A DNA stretch of 64,000 bases from Tistrella mobilis KA081020-065. Its GTDB lineage: Bacteria > Pseudomonadota > Alphaproteobacteria > Tistrellales > Tistrellaceae. Below the pieces are notes generated by a model, which saw nothing but the letters and a program-made list of their open reading frames with translations, was not told the origin of the DNA and ran no database searches. Location: positions 417,501 to 481,500 of the forward strand of contig NC_017956.1 of the NCBI RefSeq assembly GCF_000264455.2. Reading direction: 5' to 3'. Numbering within the stretch: position 1 is the first letter of the stretch; each line of letters starts with the position of its first letter. This document shows positions 33,755 through 42,059 of this stretch, piece by piece. Position numbers and translations under genes: made by a program.

Positions 33755-33911
33755 GATCGGATTCCGGTGACGGTGGCTGGCATGAGGCTTTCTCTGCCGC
33801 ATTGCGGCGAAAGGAGCAAGTCTCCGCCTTGTGATGCCGCGCCCGCAGCCTTACCAATAGATGGAGGCGGTGGCGGATGGCACGACCCCGCGGAAGAGCA
33901 GGGAGCAGGGT

Positions 33912-36707
33912 GTGAGCGACGACGACGGCATGACGCGCGGTCCCGCCAGGGCGGCCAACGGCAACGGGTCCGATGCAGCTCTGAAGGACGATATCCGCTT
34001 CCTCGGCCGGATCCTGGGCGACATCGTCCGCCTCAACGAGGGGGCGGAGGTCTTCGATCTGGTGGAGCGGATCCGCCAGACATCGATCCGCTTCCATCGC
34101 GACGAGGATCGTGCCGCGCATGACGAACTCGATGCGCTGCTCGGCGGCATGGACACGGTGCAGGGGCTGAAGATCGTCCGTGCCTTCAGCTATTTCTCCC
34201 ATCTCGCCAACATCGCCGAGGATCAGGACCGGTTGCGCCAGTCGCGCGCCGGCATGCCCGACGGCGACGGTCCGGCGGCCGGAACGCTCGACTATGCGAT
34301 GGCGCGCGCGGCGACCGACGGGCTCGATCCCGACCGGCTCGCGGCCTTTTTCGACACCGCGCGGGTGGGGCCGGTGCTGACCGCCCATCCGACCGAGGTG
34401 CGCCGCAAGAGCACGCTGACGCGCGAGGCGGAAATCGCCCGCCTGCTCGACCGTCGCGACCGCGAGCGGCCGCAGGGCGAAGAGGCGGCGGCGATCGAGG
34501 AAGAGGTCACCCGCGCGGTGCTCACCCTCTGGCAGACTGCCATGCTGCGCCGCACCCGCCTGACCGTGATCGACGAAGTGGTCAACGGGCTCAGCTATTA
34601 CGACGAGACCTTCCTGACCGAGGTGCCGGCCGTTCACGCCCGGGTGGAAGACATGCTCGCCCGCCGCGCCGGCAGCACCGCCGAGGCGCGGGCGGGTGTC
34701 GCCTCGTTCCTGAAGATGGGCAGCTGGATCGGCGGCGACCGCGACGGCAACCCGTTCGTGACCGCCGACGTGTTGCGCACGACCATGCGGCTGCACACCC
34801 GCCAGGCGATGAAATTCTATCTTGCCGAATTGCACGAACTTGGGGCCGAACTCTCGCTGTCGGCGACGCTGGTGCCGGTGAGCGACGATCTGGCGGCACT
34901 GGCTGCGGCCTCGCCGGTGACGCCCGAGCATCAGCGCCAGGAACCCTATCGCCTGGCGGTGGCCGGCATTCATGCCCGGATGGCGGCGACGGCTGAGGCG
35001 CTCGACGCGGCCGATGCGGTGACCCGCCCGGTGCCCGCGGCGCCGCGCTATGCCGATCCGGCCGGACTTGCCCGGGATCTCGACGTCGTTCATGAGAGCC
35101 TGGTGGCCAATGGCTCGGTTCTGCTCGCCCGCGGCCGGCTGCGGCGTCTGAGGCGGGCGGTCGACTGTTTCGGCTTCCATCTGGCGGTGCTCGATCTGCG
35201 CCAGAATTCGGCGGTGCATGAGCGCACGGTGGCCGAACTGCTGGAGGTGGCCGCTCCCGGCACCGACTATCTGTCGCTGGACGAAGAGGCACGCATCGCG
35301 GTTCTGGAGCGCGAGCTTGCGACCACCCGGCCGCTGGTGTCGCCCTTCGCAAAATATTGCGAAGAGACCACGGCCGAATTCGCAATCTTCGCAGAGGCGG
35401 CGGCGACCCATCGTCGCCTCGGGCCCCAGGCGATCGAGAACGTGATCATCTCGAAGACCGACGGGGCCTCGGACCTGCTGGAACTGGCGCTGCTGCTGAA
35501 GGAGGTCGGGCTGGTGCGGCCCGACGGAACCGCCGCGGTGAATATCGTACCGCTGTTCGAAACCATCGCCGACCTCAGGGCCGCGCCCCAGATCATGCGG
35601 CGGGTCTTTGCCTGCCCGGCCTATCGCCGTCTCGTCGCCTCGCGCGGCGAGATGCAGGAGGTCATGCTGGGATATTCCGACAGCAACAAGGATGGCGGCT
35701 TCGTCACCTCGCGCTGGGAACTCTACAAGGCGGAGACGGAGCTGGTCGCCTGCTTCCGCGAGGCCGGGGTGGCGCTGCGCCTGTTCCACGGGCGCGGCGG
35801 CTCGGTCGGCCGGGGCGGCGGATCGGCCTATGACGCGATCCTGGCCCAGCCGGCCGGCGCTGTGGGCGGCCGGATCCGGGTCACCGAACAGGGCGAGATC
35901 ATCTCCAGCAAATACGCCAATCCGGGCCTCGGCCGGCGCAACCTCGAAACCTTCGTCGCCGCCACGCTGGAAGCGAGCCTTCTGCCGCAGCCGGCCTGCG
36001 CCGACCTCGAGGCCGACATGGCGGCGATGGAAGAGCTGTCCGACACCGCCTTTACCGCCTATCGGGCCCTCGTCTACGAAACGCCCGGCTTTGAAGACTA
36101 TTTCTGGGCCTCGACCGTCATCACCGAGATCGCCTCGCTCAATATCGGCAGTCGTCCGGCCTCGCGCAGCCGCACGCGGCGGATCGAGGATCTGCGGGCG
36201 ATCCCCTGGGTGTTCTCGTGGTCGCAGTGTCGGGCGATGCTGCCCGGCTGGTACGGGTTCGGGGCGGCGGTGACCGCCTGGCGTGACCGTCATGGCGAGG
36301 CAGGGCTCGACCGGTTGCGGCGCATGTATCGCGACTGGCCCTTCTTCACCACGCTGCTGTCGAACATGGAGATGGTGCTGGCCAAGACCAGTATGGCGAT
36401 CGCATCCCGCTATGCCGAACTGGTGCCCGACGAGGCGCTGCGCGAAGCGGTGTTCGGCCGGATCCGTGCCGAATGGCAGTCGTCCGAGGCGGCACTTCTG
36501 GCGATCACCGGCCAGACGATGGTGCTGGAGCGGACGCCGCAGCTGGCGCGGTCGATCCGCGACCGCTTCCCCTATCTGGATCCGCTGAACCATGTTCAGG
36601 TCGAAATGCTGCGCCAGCACCGGTCGGAGGCGGGCAGCGACCGCCATCTCTCCGGCATCCATCTCACCATCAACGGGATCTCGGCCGGGCTGCGCAACAG
36701 TGGCTGA
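33912..36707 (+). CDS. ppc: Phosphoenolpyruvate carboxylase
   Basis: A 931-residue PEP carboxylase, which combines phosphoenolpyruvate with bicarbonate to refill the TCA cycle with oxaloacetate. The catalytic [13 protein letters not shown] carries His159, and the second site [13 protein letters not shown] carries His626; [10 protein letters not shown] and the C-terminal LRNSG (usually QNTG) are also present. I favour the GTG at 33912, which has GGGAG 6 nt upstream; an ATG at 33861 would add 17 residues without a ribosome site. A LysR gene begins only 20 bp downstream, followed by the dabBA bicarbonate module. Bicarbonate, not CO2, is the substrate, so the neighbourhood is suggestive. Confidence 0.95.
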
Positions 36708-36727
36708 CCCCGCAGATCCGGGGAGGC

Positions 36728-37627
36728 ATGTCTCCGGTGCATGACATCGACACCGCGCTGCTGCGCAGTTTCGTTTCTCTGGCGGAAACGCGCAGTTTTT
36801 CCCGCACCGCCGAACGGGTCGGACGGTCGCAGTCGGCCGTCAGCACCCAGATCCGCAAGCTGGAGGATCTGGTCGGTTGCACCCTGTTCGACCGGGACAA
36901 GCGCAATGTCCGCCTGACCCGCGAGGGCGAGGTGCTGCTGGGCTATGCCCGCCAGATGATCCGGCTGTCGGATACGATGCTCGACCGGTTCCGCACGCCC
37001 GAGATCGCGGGCGAGGTCCGCTTCGGCTCGCCCGAAGACTTCGCCACGCGCTATCTGCCCGAGATCCTGGCGGCCTTCGCGGCCGCCCATCCCCGCATCC
37101 GGCTGGATGTGAACTGCGATCTGACCCTGCATCTGATCGACGGCCTGAAGGCCGGGCGCTACGACCTGATCGTCATCAAGCAGGATCCGGACGATCTGCA
37201 TGCCGACAGCATCCGGCTCTGGCGGGAACATCTGGTCTGGGTCGGGGGGCCGGAGATGAGCCCCGAGACCCCCTTTGCCGAGGTGGCCGAGGCGGCATCC
37301 GCCGACCCGTTGCCGCTGGTATTGTCGCCGCCGCCCTGCGTCTACCGGGCGCGTGCGACCCGCGCGCTGGCCGAAATCGGCCTGCCCTGGACGGTGGCCT
37401 ATTCCAGCCCGAGTTTTGCAGGCGCGGTTGCGGCGGTGAAGGCCGGGCTGGGCTTCACCGTGCTGCCCCGGACCATGGTGCCTGAAGGGCTGGTCGGGTT
37501 CGATGCCCGCCGTGGCTGGCCGGCGCTCAGCGATGCCGAGATCTGCCTGCTGTCGGTGCCGCGGCCGGATCCCGCCACCGATGCCCTTGCCGGTTTCATC
37601 CGCGATCGGGTCCAGACTTATCGATAA
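36728..37627 (+). CDS. LysR-family regulator of the ppc-dab region
   Basis: A 299-residue LysR-type regulator with helix-turn-helix at residues 8-65 (LLRSFVSLAETRSFSRTAE and RSQSAVSTQIRKLEDLVG). The effector domain follows. The RBS GGGGAGG lies just before ATG 36728. It sits between ppc and dabB on the same strand. LysR proteins of the CbbR type often control dab and carbon-fixation genes, but I cannot show that this is a CbbR; its relation by sequence needs comparison. Its stop codon lies inside the palindrome TTATCGATAA, and an intrinsic-type hairpin follows. Confidence 0.88.
   Translation: MSPVHDIDTALLRSFVSLAETRSFSRTAERVGRSQSAVSTQIRKLEDLVGCTLFDRDKRNVRLTREGEVLLGYARQMIRLSDTMLDRFRTPEIAGEVRFGSPEDFATRYLPEILAAFAAAHPRIRLDVNCDLTLHLIDGLKAGRYDLIVIKQDPDDLHADSIRLWREHLVWVGGPEMSPETPFAEVAEAASADPLPLVLSPPPCVYRARATRALAEIGLPWTVAYSSPSFAGAVAAVKAGLGFTVLPRTMVPEGLVGFDARRGWPALSDAEICLLSVPRPDPATDALAGFIRDRVQTYR
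37618..37627. promoter_or_regulatory. Palindrome TTATCGATAA at the end of the LysR gene
   Basis: A perfect 10-bp palindrome covering the LysR stop codon. Two more GATAA words follow at 37632 and 37646 in the AT-rich leader of dabB. It is a candidate regulator site for dabB. Confidence 0.35.
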
Positions 37628-37648
37628 AAGTGATAAGATTGATTAGAT

Positions 37649-37669
37649 AAATCCGTTTCACGGATTTTT
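37649..37669 (+). terminator. Hairpin with T run between LysR gene and dabB
   Basis: AAATCCG (37649-37655) pairs with CGGATTT (37661-37667) around TTTCA, and a run of five Ts (37665-37669) begins inside the right arm. It could terminate the ppc-LysR transcript, or act as an attenuator in the dabB leader. Thirty-odd bases downstream is the dabB RBS ACGGAGGTG. Confidence 0.65.
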
Positions 37670-37719
37670 CTGCATATGCGAAAAGCGGCCACGTCCCCAC
37701 GCAACGGAGGTGTCCGCAG

Positions 37720-39189
37720 ATGACCGGTTTTCAGACAGCGATCCGCAGCGCTCAGCCCCTGCCGCAGGCTTCCGGCCGTCGCCCGGGGCTTCGCCATCTG
37801 ACCGGCGCGGCCGCGCTGGCGGCAGCGGCTGCGCTTGTGGCGCTGCCGGTCGGCGACGGCATTACCCTCGGCCCGCTCACCATCGACAGGGCGGCGCTCT
37901 TCCTGGCCACGGCCGTGCTGGGCCTGTCCGCCCTGGTACAGGGCTTCGCCTGGCGCTACATGGACGGTGATCGCGACCGTCGCGGCTTCGATCTCCGGCT
38001 CGGCATCCTGACGCTTGCCGCTCTGGCCCTGGCCGCCTCGGACCATATGCTCGCCTTCCTGGTCGCCTGGTCGGTCGTGGCACTGGTGCTGCCGCGGGCA
38101 ATCGGCCATGTCCGGGGCTGGGCGGCCGCCGATGCCGCCGCCTCCCTTGCGCGCCGCAGCCTGATCGGCGGCACGGTGCTTCTGGGGGGCGGCCTGCTTC
38201 TGCTCTGGCTGGCCACCGGTGCAGACCGCTTCTCGGCGCTTGCGGCGGGGCTGCCGGCGGCGGATCCGATGATGGTCACCCTTGCGGCTCTCGGATTCGT
38301 GGCCGTGGTCGTGGTGCAGTGCGCCCTGCCGCCCGCCCATGGCTGGCTGATGGCCTCGATGACCGCGCCCACCCCCGTCTCCGCCTTCATGCATGCGGGC
38401 CTGGTCAATGCCGGCGGCATCCTGATGCTGCGGACCCTGCCGGTCTTTGAAGCGGTGCCGGCGGCAACCGTCGCGGCCTTCGCCATGGGCAGCCTCGCGA
38501 TGTTGATCGGGACTGCCGCGTCCCGGGCACAGGCGGGTGTGAAGCGGGGGCTGGCTGCCTCTACCAGCGCGCAGATGGGCTATATGACGGTCCAGGCCGC
38601 ACTGGGCTTCCCCGGCGCCGCTCTTGCCCATCTGGTTCTGCACGGGCTCTACAAGGCGAGCCTCTTCCTGGGGGCGGGCTCGGCGCTGGCCGGTGCCCAT
38701 GCACCCCGGGCGTCGGTGCCGGTGACGGCGTCCCGCCTGATGTTCGCCTGGCCTGCGGCCATCGCCGCAGGCGCCGGCTTCGCCCTGGTGACCGGCAAGC
38801 TCGACGCCACGCTTGGGGGCCGGGTCGATACCGGCGCCATCCTGGTGGCGATCGCGGGCCTGGCCGGGCTGCAGCTTGCAACCGGTGTGCTGCGCACCGG
38901 CGCCCGGACCATGGTGGTGCTGCTGGCGCTGCCGGTGGCGGCCCTGATCGCCGGCGGTCTCTACGGCGCCGTCATTCTGATCGTCGATGCCCTGACGGGC
39001 GTCGCGGCGGCACCGCAGCCGCTCGCCCTGTATCACCTTCTGCTGCCGGTGGCGCTGCTCATGGGCTGGGGCGGAATCGCCCTCGGCCTCGATCGCCGGG
39101 CCGCCGCTGCCTGGACCTTCTTCGCCACGGCGGCACGGCCCGCCGCTGCCACCACCTCCTCCGTCACGAAGGGTGCTTCCCATGCCTGA
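37720..39189 (+). CDS. dabB: DabB: NADH dehydrogenase subunit 5-like subunit of inorganic-carbon pump
   Basis: A 489-residue membrane protein of the proton-conducting (NuoL/MrpA-like) family with 13 or more hydrophobic segments. Conserved elements include LPPAHGWLMASMTAPTPVSAFMHAG around residues 205-230 and LAASTSAQMGYMTVQAALG around 285-303. It is not part of a complex I cluster; dabA follows immediately and overlaps by 8 bases. In the characterised DAB system DabB supplies a cation gradient to DabA to drive one-way CO2 hydration to bicarbonate in the cytosol. The RBS ACGGAGGTG is strong. Confidence 0.93.
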   Translation: MTGFQTAIRSAQPLPQASGRRPGLRHLTGAAALAAAAALVALPVGDGITLGPLTIDRAALFLATAVLGLSALVQGFAWRYMDGDRDRRGFDLRLGILTLAALALAASDHMLAFLVAWSVVALVLPRAIGHVRGWAAADAAASLARRSLIGGTVLLGGGLLLLWLATGADRFSALAAGLPAADPMMVTLAALGFVAVVVVQCALPPAHGWLMASMTAPTPVSAFMHAGLVNAGGILMLRTLPVFEAVPAATVAAFAMGSLAMLIGTAASRAQAGVKRGLAASTSAQMGYMTVQAALGFPGAALAHLVLHGLYKASLFLGAGSALAGAHAPRASVPVTASRLMFAWPAAIAAGAGFALVTGKLDATLGGRVDTGAILVAIAGLAGLQLATGVLRTGARTMVVLLALPVAALIAGGLYGAVILIVDALTGVAAAPQPLALYHLLLPVALLMGWGGIALGLDRRAAAAWTFFATAARPAAATTSSVTKGASHA

Positions 39190-41656
39190 GACCGCACGGC
39201 TCCTGGCCGAGATCGAAGCCGCTGCCGCCTGCATCGCTCCCTGGCGGCCCCTCCACACCATGATTGCCATCAACCCCCTTCAGGGGCTTGAGGATCTGCC
39301 CTTCGAGGCGGCGACCGCCGAGGCGGCCCGGCTGTTCGGCGGCCGGCCCTGGCCCGATGCCGGGATGGTGGCCCCGGCCCTGGCGGATGGCCGCATCTCC
39401 ACCACCATGCTGACGGTTGCGGCATTGCGCCACGGCCGGCCCGAGCTGGCCGATCCCGACCGGTTGATCAAGGCCCTGCGGCACGAGGTCGTGCCCGGCC
39501 GGCAGGCGGCCATCGGCGCCGCCGCAGACCTCGACCGGCTGACCGGCTTCTGGCTTGCTGCCTTCCTCGACCAGGGGCAGGCGACATGGGCGATGCCGGA
39601 TCGGGAGCTGGGCTTCTACCGGGCCTGGCGGCGGCTGGCGCGCCATGATCGGGCGATCCCCGACCGGCGCCGGATCGACCGGCTGCCGGACGATCCGGCG
39701 GTGCTGGTTCACCAGCGGCTGGGCGGGCTGGACGCAGCCACCCGGGAAGACATCATCCGGGCCCATCTGGTCGCCCTGCCGGGCTGGGTTGCGCATCTGC
39801 GCTGGCGGGTGGCCGAAGGGGGGCATCATCCCTGGAACGCCGTCGCCCCTGCCTCTCTGCTCGACTATGTGGCCGTGCGGCTGGCGCTCGCGGATCTGCT
39901 GGGGGTGACCCTGCCGCCGGTCGCGGCACCGGCCGGGCCCGCGGACAGGCGGCTGCGCGCACCGGCCGGTCTGGTGGCGCTGGAAGCCTGGGAGGAAAGC
40001 CATCGCCAGCGGCTGCTGACGATGCTGACCTCCACCCCGCCCGCCGCGGATGCTGGCGGTTCGGCGCAGCCCCTCGGTCAGATCGTTCTCTGCATCGACG
40101 TGCGCTCGGAAGTGCTGCGGCGGCATCTGGAGGCGACGGGCCCCTGGGCGACGCTCGGCTTCGCCGGCTTCTTCGGCGTCCCGGTCGCGGTGCGGCCCTT
40201 CGGCGAGGATGACCCCCATGCCTCCTGCCCGGTGCTGCTCCGGCCCCGTCATCTGGTCGACGAACACCCGCTGCCCGAGGCGGCGGATCTGGCGGTGCGG
40301 CACCTTGCCGGCCGGCGGCGGCTGGGCGGGCTGAAGTCCCTGGTCAAGGAGCTGAAGGCGGGCGTTGCCGGCAGCTTCGGCTATATCGAGGCGACGGGCC
40401 TTGTCCATGGTGCGGCCATGATGCTGCGCACGCTGACCCCCCGGCTGGCGGAGCGGCTGTCGACCGGCTTCGGCCGGGCCGTCATGCCCGAGGTGCCGGT
40501 GGCGCCGGGCCTGGATCTGCATCACGATCATGATCACGACCATGATCATCACCACCACCATGGCGACGCGGAGGATCTGATCCTGGGGCTGTCGCCCGCC
40601 GAGCAGGCCTTCTTCGCCGAGGGGGCACTGCGGGTGATGGGCCTGACCAAGGGCTTCGCCGAGCTGGTGGTCTTCTGCGGTCATGGCGGTCATACGGTCA
40701 ACAACGTCTTCGCCTCGGGCCTCGATTGCGGTGCCTGCGGCGGCAATCGGGGCGGGCCCAACGCCCGGATCCTGGCGGCGCTGCTGAATGCGCCGGCGGT
40801 GCGGGCGGCGCTGGCGGAGCGGGGCATCGTGATCCCCGAGATCACCCGCTTCCTGTCGGCAGAGCACGACACCACCACCGATCGGGTCGCGCTCGATCCC
40901 GATCCGGTGGCGGCGTCCCGGCAGAGCTTCCGGCGGCTCCAGGCCGATCTGGACCGGGCGCGGCGGGCGGCGGCTGCCGAGCGGGTGTCGCACCTGACCG
41001 GTGCCGATGCGGTCGATCCGGTCCGGGCGGTGGAAAAGCGGGCTGCCGACTGGTCCGAAGTGCGGCCCGAATGGGCGCTGGCCGGCAATGCCGCCTTCAT
41101 CGTCGGCGATCGGGCGCTCACCCGCCATCTCGACCTTGGCGGGCGGACCTTCCTGCATTCTTATGACTGGCAGGCGGATGCCGACGGCCGGCTCCTGGAA
41201 GTGATCCTGACCGCACCGATGGTGGTCGCGGAGTGGATCAACACCCAGTATCTGTTCTCGACGCTCGACAACGACACCTGGGGGGCAGGGTCGAAGACCA
41301 TCCACGATCCGGTGGCGGGTCTCGGCGTGCTGAAGGGCAATGGTCCCGATCTCGCCGTCGGTCTGCCGCTCCAGTCGGTGATGGTGGCGGACGGCCAGAT
41401 CCGGCACGAGCCGCTTCGGTTGATGGCCGTGGTCCAGGCGCCGCGTACCCGGGTGGAGGCGGCCATCGAACGCCATGCCGTGCTCTCCACCCTGTTCGAC
41501 AATGGCTGGGTCGCGCTCGCGGTGCTCGATCCCGAAACCGGATGCAGCTGGCGGCGCGACCGCAGCGGCACCTGGATTGAGGCGCTGCCCGAACAGGCGC
41601 CCGAGGTGATGTCCGAGACCGGTGCCCTTGCCTCCGCAACCCCGATTCCGGCCTGA
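39182..41656 (+). CDS. dabA: DabA: vectorial carbonic-anhydrase-like subunit of inorganic-carbon pump (DUF2309)
   Basis: An 824-residue protein of the DUF2309/DabA family. In the characterised DAB complex it hydrates CO2 to bicarbonate at a beta-carbonic-anhydrase-like zinc site. The four zinc-site residues are all here: Cys304 and Asp306 in IVLCIDVRSE, His501 in CGHGGH, and Cys516 in GLDCGACGGN. The His-Cys spacing of 15 equals that of the studied H. neapolitanus protein. Residues 447-460 form a run of only His and Asp (HHDHDHDHDHHHHH), an insertion I do not associate with the family. ATG 39182 is 8 nt after GAAGGG; a GTG at 39173 is less likely. Translation is coupled to dabB. Confidence 0.95.
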   Translation: MPETARLLAEIEAAAACIAPWRPLHTMIAINPLQGLEDLPFEAATAEAARLFGGRPWPDAGMVAPALADGRISTTMLTVAALRHGRPELADPDRLIKALRHEVVPGRQAAIGAAADLDRLTGFWLAAFLDQGQATWAMPDRELGFYRAWRRLARHDRAIPDRRRIDRLPDDPAVLVHQRLGGLDAATREDIIRAHLVALPGWVAHLRWRVAEGGHHPWNAVAPASLLDYVAVRLALADLLGVTLPPVAAPAGPADRRLRAPAGLVALEAWEESHRQRLLTMLTSTPPAADAGGSAQPLGQIVLCIDVRSEVLRRHLEATGPWATLGFAGFFGVPVAVRPFGEDDPHASCPVLLRPRHLVDEHPLPEAADLAVRHLAGRRRLGGLKSLVKELKAGVAGSFGYIEATGLVHGAAMMLRTLTPRLAERLSTGFGRAVMPEVPVAPGLDLHHDHDHDHDHHHHHGDAEDLILGLSPAEQAFFAEGALRVMGLTKGFAELVVFCGHGGHTVNNVFASGLDCGACGGNRGGPNARILAALLNAPAVRAALAERGIVIPEITRFLSAEHDTTTDRVALDPDPVAASRQSFRRLQADLDRARRAAAAERVSHLTGADAVDPVRAVEKRAADWSEVRPEWALAGNAAFIVGDRALTRHLDLGGRTFLHSYDWQADADGRLLEVILTAPMVVAEWINTQYLFSTLDNDTWGAGSKTIHDPVAGLGVLKGNGPDLAVGLPLQSVMVADGQIRHEPLRLMAVVQAPRTRVEAAIERHAVLSTLFDNGWVALAVLDPETGCSWRRDRSGTWIEALPEQAPEVMSETGALASATPIPA

Positions 41657-41702
41657 ACCGATTTCTGATCCGGCCCCGATCCGATCCCGAGGAGACGTAC
41701 CC

Positions 41703-42059
41703 ATGACCGACGCAGCCGCTTCCGATCAGATCCTGTTCCACCCGCTCAAGAAGATCGAGATCATCGTCATCGGTGAGACCGAGCCCTTTGTCCGGCGCCT
41801 GCTCGACGACTCGGGCGTCTCCGGCTACACCCTCATCCGCGACGTCGCCGGCAAGGGGCATCACCGCTTCCAGGAGGGGCGGCTGCTGTTCAACGACCAG
41901 GCCAGCCTGGTGATGCTGCTCGCCGTGGCGCCTGAGAATGCCATCCGTCGGATCGCCGCCGGCCTGGCGCCGCTCTTCCGCAAACAGTCGGGGGTGATGT
42001 TCATCTCGGATGTGCAGGTGGTGCGCCTGGAGCACTTCACCCGGCCCGAGGCCGGATGA
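41703..42059 (+). CDS. PII-like signalling protein of the dab module
   Basis: A 118-residue protein with the ferredoxin-like PII fold: strand HPLKKIEIIVI, helix ETEPFVRRLLDDSG, then GYTLIRDVAGKGHHRF (the base of the T loop), LVMLLAVAPENAIRRIAAGLAPLFR, and a closing VMFISDVQVVRL. The T loop is short and lacks the uridylylated Tyr of GlnB/GlnK, so this is not a nitrogen regulator of that type. PII-like proteins near DAB or carboxysome genes bind adenine nucleotides and bicarbonate and probably tune carbon uptake. RBS GAGGAG precedes ATG 41703, 46 bp after dabA. Confidence 0.85.
   Translation: MTDAAASDQILFHPLKKIEIIVIGETEPFVRRLLDDSGVSGYTLIRDVAGKGHHRFQEGRLLFNDQASLVMLLAVAPENAIRRIAAGLAPLFRKQSGVMFISDVQVVRLEHFTRPEAG

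Follow-up and report, generated by a model that had tools for sequence, protein, structure and literature searches.

A histidine/aspartate run in a loop of the carbonic-anhydrase-like protein DabA of Tistrella mobilis: a candidate metal-holding appendage

The DabA protein encoded in the analyzed stretch of the Tistrella mobilis KA081020-065 genome (64,000 nucleotides, hereinafter the window) contains an uninterrupted run of ten His and four Asp residues, which, judging by comparison of its homologs, is probably a genus-specific low-complexity insertion. We give even chances to the proposal that this run, as a weak metal-holding appendage, helps DabA to get or keep its zinc; the case would represent a known protein in a lineage-specific version, carrying a metal-binding tract of a known type in an unusual place. 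The preliminary description, made from the sequence alone, had reported that residues 447-460 consist exclusively of His and Asp, are followed by GD and further acidic residues, and precede a zinc ligand by about 40 residues. All of this is confirmed: the in-frame codons (CAT CAC GAT CAT GAT CAC GAC CAT GAT CAT CAC CAC CAC CAT) translate to HHDHDHDHDHHHHH, the tail GDAED follows directly, and the measured spacing to His501 is 41 residues (Table 1). A chance origin is ruled out by three observations, namely that a pattern of eight consecutive His/Asp codons gives 7 overlapping matches at the run versus none in 100 shuffles of the window, that a nine-codon version read backwards has no match throughout the window's genome, and that the His and Asp frequency of DabA outside the run predicts approximately 3e-12 runs of 14 in this protein. 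Likewise, some form of the run occurs in three separate assemblies of the source genus, and it is therefore no assembly or tag artefact.

Table 1. Features of the dab region, in positions of the window; residue numbers of DabA are counted from the ATG at 39182
Feature	Coordinates	Strand	Basis and remarks
dabB, NuoL-like membrane partner	37720..39189	+	PF00361, E=6.5e-29
dabA, 824 aa	39182..41656	+	PF10070; nearest solved structure 9rd0 (DabA2), E=2e-113
Cys304	40091..40093	+	zinc ligand by homology (Cys351 in DabA2); invariant in 91 rows
Predicted helices 365-393, 395-418, 420-434	40274..40483	+	AlphaFold2; taken as the membrane 'finger' region (a16/a17 of DabA2) by homology, from part of PMC13144422
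Glu403	40388..40390	+	aligned with Glu444 of DabA2; nearly invariant among 91 rows
His/Asp run HHDHDHDHDHHHHH	40520..40561	+	DabA residues 447-460
Acidic tail GDAED	40562..40576	+	directly 3' of the His/Asp run
His501	40682..40684	+	zinc ligand by homology (His524 in DabA2); invariant in 91 rows
Cys516	40727..40729	+	zinc ligand by homology (Cys539 in DabA2); invariant in 91 rows
P-II-like regulator gene, after dabA	41697..42059	+	PF00543, E=8.5e-22

Apart from the run, the protein appears from its sequence to be a genuine and ordinary DabA: residues 11-777 align with the complete PF10070 profile (1-747 of 747; E=2e-244; 813.9 bits against a cut-off of 25). This is the only profile matched at E 0.001, with no GTPase domain of the CobW, HypB or UreG type. 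The homology to DabA2 of Halothiobacillus neapolitanus (PDB 9rd0/9rd8/9rd9; PMC13144422) is near full-length, and the two proteins have in common the zinc ligands, the Asp-Arg dyad, the finger glutamate, and a NuoL-like partner. The portion of the DabA2 report drawn on here (PMC13144422) identifies Cys351, His524 and Cys539 as ligands of a single zinc per molecule and Asp353-Arg355 as the dyad, describes a buried active site reached by narrow tunnels, proposes a model in which the proton of the zinc-bound water leaves via Asp353 and nearby residues, and states in a legend that some regions of the structure were left unresolved; the same portion reports that replacement of Glu444, which may take part in proton transfer, abolishes activity. 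The corresponding dyad of the window's DabA, Asp306-Arg308, is invariant at both positions in 91 aligned DabA proteins. At the place aligned with the run, DabA2 has a shorter segment of a similar type, GLTPEERARLHPQLVKLDGG, which contains a single His and lacks the run. The AlphaFold2 model of the window's DabA (91 aligned sequences, mean pLDDT 90.4, pTM 0.92) predicts a β-carbonic-anhydrase-like fold, with β-carbonic anhydrase chains at the top of the list of fold matches (CsoSCA 2fgy, Z 11.6, rmsd 4.5 over 320 residues); Foldseek alone returned no match for the model with E below 0.65. By homology, its activity would be a carbonic-anhydrase-like hydration of CO2 driven by the proton motive force.

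The dab genes lie within a co-directional array, ppc (PEP carboxylase, PF00311)-lysR-dabB-dabA-P-II-like gene (33861-42059, all on the + strand), in which the dabB and dabA frames overlap by 8 bases (39182-39189), suggesting translational coupling. In a second genome of the genus, G002, ppc and lysR likewise adjoin dab (L252; dab placed by position). With a complex that makes bicarbonate next to a carboxylase that consumes it, the arrangement suggests a unit supplying bicarbonate for anaplerosis. We found no match in the window to the consensus of Zur-type sites as commonly given. A palindrome, ATGTTATAACAT, which we take to resemble a Zur box, occurs shortly before a ZnuD-like receptor gene (L228:1024-1035); the window contains two 3-mismatch matches to it, a number equaled by shuffled sequence, and one of the two lies before dabB, at 37628. 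Zur control of the dab operon was thus rejected, there being no match to the palindrome above chance in the window.

In the predicted structure, the membrane finger is followed by a short strand (residues 440-443), a segment devoid of regular structure (446-462), a helix (472-486), and the strand (495-502) that bears His501, so that the loop with the run is predicted to join the finger to the β-carbonic-anhydrase-like core. The first four residues of the run fall in a block with a mean pLDDT of 86, residues 451-460 average 50, and residues 457-460 lie below 50; the loop that holds most of the run is accordingly predicted to be largely disordered. The preliminary description had placed the run close to the zinc site, which holds along the sequence only, and had named a disordered surface loop far from the zinc as the setting that would speak against a function. 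Placed on the model, most of the run falls in a loop of low confidence that follows the finger and precedes the helix toward His501, which bears out the disorder, by AlphaFold2 prediction.

The same position bears on two further readings. The preliminary description had also suggested a buffering of the protons released by CO2 hydration, and one may more generally envisage that imidazoles near the proton-conducting finger relay protons or gate the complex according to cytoplasmic pH. The loop does come after the finger, whose glutamate may join proton transfer in DabA2 (Glu444, as given in part of PMC13144422), and one of the non-DabA proteins matching the run, an NhaB Na+/H+ antiporter (L175:125-1714), possesses a similar H/D-rich loop, HHDHDHTHDDHVNH. 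Against this stand the differences in order and length of the run between sister genomes, the lack of any His from the loop segment in 95 of 180 DabA rows, and the exit of the zinc-water proton via Asp353 and nearby residues in the DabA2 model (same part of PMC13144422), leaving slight support for what we regard as an improbable role. Alternatively, in an interface or stability role, a charged loop might make contact with DabB, with lipid head groups, or with a further protein (the P-II-like neighbor, for example), its composition mattering only as that of a hydrophilic spacer. It adjoins the finger, and the loops of the two nearest relatives outside the genus are acidic; however, a spacer has no need of histidine and those relatives do with shorter loops, and we attach very little probability to this reading.

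To establish the phyletic spread of the run, DabA matches were collected from sampled genomes of the class (48 of 385) and the phylum (73 of 398), part of which were fetched; of these totals, 1 and 5, respectively, are weak matches confined to about the run, and the 4 of these 6 that were inspected are His-rich proteins other than DabA (one CDF, two CobW-type, one NhaB). A single-protein search of genome contigs with DabA found no relative, whereas a profile search with an alignment of the family (A1) did find loci, of which the best 80 of 588 formed a second collection. One further family (9 of 61 genomes) and its order (11 of 76 genomes), which are overlapping sets, were added. Removal of 2 duplicates and 4 fragments from the 185 candidate loci left 179, which together with the window's DabA make up 180 rows. 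All three genomes examined from the source genus (that of the window, a conspecific one, and a third) have a form of the run, and the order-level search returned the same three genomes as the genus-level search. One of the other two forms, HHDHDHHHHHHHDD (L002), is two residues shorter overall; the second, HHDRDHGHDHHHHHHDD (L003), is broken up by Arg and Gly. The two nearest outside relatives among the matches listed, L004 (56%) and L031 (52%), have short acidic loops in place of the run (PAGEDPEAATGF and CDDGGAEPTGL).

Across the family, the loop segment spans 13 to 46 residues, and five or more His within 12 loop residues were found in 5 of the 180 rows, namely the three genus members and a pair, L240 and L015, whose two genomes belong to a different family of the class; two haloarchaea have four His within such a stretch. 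The loop's His content without the genus, 3.7% against 3.0% elsewhere, amounts to a slight family-wide excess. These observations rule out the run as a fixed feature of DabA, in keeping with the preliminary description, which did not recall it as one, and the alignment of homologs that it had proposed identifies a lineage feature. In L240 and L015 the expansion sits at the same loop and is composed of His-Gly-His-Asp rather than His-Asp repeats; L015 is 36% identical overall to the window's DabA. Among the 11 loci (10 genes, L247 and L249 being the same one) of that family, the expansion is restricted to L240 and L239, the latter being the same gene as L015. In a FastTree tree computed without the loop columns, the genus and this pair, on a far branch, fall in separate starred sets, the nearest other members of both of which lack the expansion, and the label 'four or more His' needs 4 changes. 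The simplest reading is that of two separate gains of a His-rich loop; on its own, the tree does not discriminate between gains and losses.

Within the genus, the run region evolves differently from the remainder of dabA. Between the window and L003, the 16 codons of the region (447-462) show 4 non-synonymous and 1 synonymous differences and one gap, versus 42 non-synonymous, 91 synonymous and no gap in the other 808 codons; relative to L002, the figures are 2 and 3 in 14 codons with two gap columns, versus 31 and 54 with no gap in the other 808. The excess of non-synonymous change in the run has a Fisher p of 0.009 for L003 and 0.1 for L002, and all indels of dabA among the three genomes lie inside the run. 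These features favor the main rival of metal holding, a near-neutral repeat in which CAY/GAY units slipped and drifted in a length-tolerant loop without benefit to the enzyme, and the raised change is as expected of such a repeat. The length range of the segment in the family, the confinement of the run to a few lineages, and the low pLDDT of the loop point in the same direction, and we consider this origin a serious possibility, somewhat short of an even chance. Conversely, the His and Asp codons are mixed, and the run is thus no fresh slippage of a pure triplet. The segment also has 10 His in each of the three genomes even as its length and order vary, a constancy that fits selection on composition and equally short common ancestry, between which three related genomes cannot decide.

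A further point against a near-neutral repeat emerges from HxH pairs in the loop. With the genus and L015/L240 left out, and the expectation taken from windows of equal length elsewhere in the same proteins, 16 of 175 rows have such a pair versus 2.9 expected, and none of 2000 simulations, in which rows are taken as independent, reached this count; for single His the loop's enrichment over elsewhere is only 1.16-fold, and other residues at the same spacing, other polar ones among them, occur at 0 to 1.5 times expectation. The exception is Pro at 6.3 times, and the enrichment of HxH alone therefore proves no metal binding. Moreover, the HxH rows are not independent, because 10 of the 16 are haloarchaea and hence kin (10 of 21 are archaeal when the five left-out rows are counted in); on the tree, the HxH label requires 15 changes, 13 of them forced by starred branches. 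Of the 25 archaeal rows, 10 have the haloarchaeal type of the pair, often HHQHTYAGDLP, at this loop. In the model of one haloarchaeal DabA (L040:4010-6364), HHQH at 437-440 is confidently ordered (block mean 94), unlike the run, and may act otherwise than as a floppy tag.

Scanning the window's genome with the nine-codon His/Asp pattern yielded 29 overlapping matches at 6 places: DabA, NicO (PF03824), ZnuA (PF01297; best NCBIfam model AztC), a TonB receptor (best NCBIfam model ZnuD), CbiX, and one frame without a Pfam match. The four recognizable carriers besides DabA thus appear, from their profile matches, to belong to zinc, nickel or cobalt protein families; their Pfam matches are above the cut-offs and their NCBIfam matches below the curated ones, which leaves the exact metal unsettled. 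The pattern gives 50 overlapping matches in G002, distributed over nine genes or frames that comprise DabA, two CobW-type GTPases, DmeF and a cupin as recognized by profile scan, counterparts of NicO, the ZnuD-like receptor and CbiX as recognized by eye, and one further frame. The small cupin (L236:2014-2607), which has no named metal role, bears the stretch HDHDHDHDHDHDHHH near its N-terminus. The confinement of the other runs in both genomes to metal-protein families, bar this cupin and, per genome, a single frame that had no match or was not scanned, also argues against a near-neutral repeat.

Some bacterial Cu,Zn superoxide dismutases carry a His-rich N-terminal extension, which, as the DabA run may be, is a metal-binding stretch inside a metalloenzyme that it may serve, although it is terminal, periplasmic and concerned with copper, whereas the DabA run is internal and cytoplasmic. 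ZnuA, CDF/DmeF, NicO and ZnuD proteins, all with representatives in the source genus, have comparable H/D-rich stretches; they move metal, whereas DabA is an enzyme subunit keeping its zinc. In vitro, any such stretch of ten His and four Asp will bind Zn, Ni or Co, as His tags do, and so would a near-neutral repeat. Natural His-rich loops with micromolar zinc sites that are disordered without zinc are described for PA4063 (in the part of PMC8561739 drawn on), and the run also fits the minimal His motif HxHxHxH (x = 0-4 residues) given for COG0523 proteins (in part of PMC2770081); COG0523, HypB and UreG proteins differ from the window's DabA in having a GTPase domain.

On this basis, the suggestion of the preliminary description that the run binds or stores Zn(II) is plausible, and it gains indirect support since the other recognizable H/D-run genes of the window's genome appear to belong to zinc, nickel and cobalt families and since HxH pairs recur in the loop. 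The second expansion in L240/L015, the constant number of His, and a zinc-enzyme host likewise favor metal holding. On the other side are the lack of the run in most DabA proteins, its fast change, the want of a Zur site in the window, the enriched Pro pairs, the ordered motif of L040, and the presence of such stretches in the cupin and NhaB; zinc loading as such does not need the run, given the 95 of 180 rows with no His in the segment. Under metal holding, the imidazoles and carboxylates would bind Zn(II), and also Ni or Co, weakly and in several interchangeable ways in the cell, thereby raising the local zinc supply for nascent or apo DabA, and the Cys304/His501/Cys516 site would be filled with this help when zinc is scarce, to the benefit of the enzyme. 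The timing would suit such a transfer, as the run would emerge from the ribosome shortly ahead of His501 and Cys516 and could take up zinc in advance; zinc may have to enter during folding because the DabA2 site is buried behind narrow tunnels (as presented in part of PMC13144422).

More speculatively, and with a probability that we put well on the low side, a DAB enzyme with a zinc-capture tether might have evolved more than once at the same loop, as an internal metallochaperone-like segment that is translated just ahead of the last two ligands and secures zinc for a site buried later. We know of no account of the route by which zinc reaches the buried site of DAB enzymes. If the run helps, deleting it would offer a simple way to test metal delivery inside a single protein, and efforts to load DAB complexes with zinc for carbon-capture engineering would gain a handle; if it is without benefit, it would serve as a clean case of a His-tag-like repeat from which no function should be deduced.
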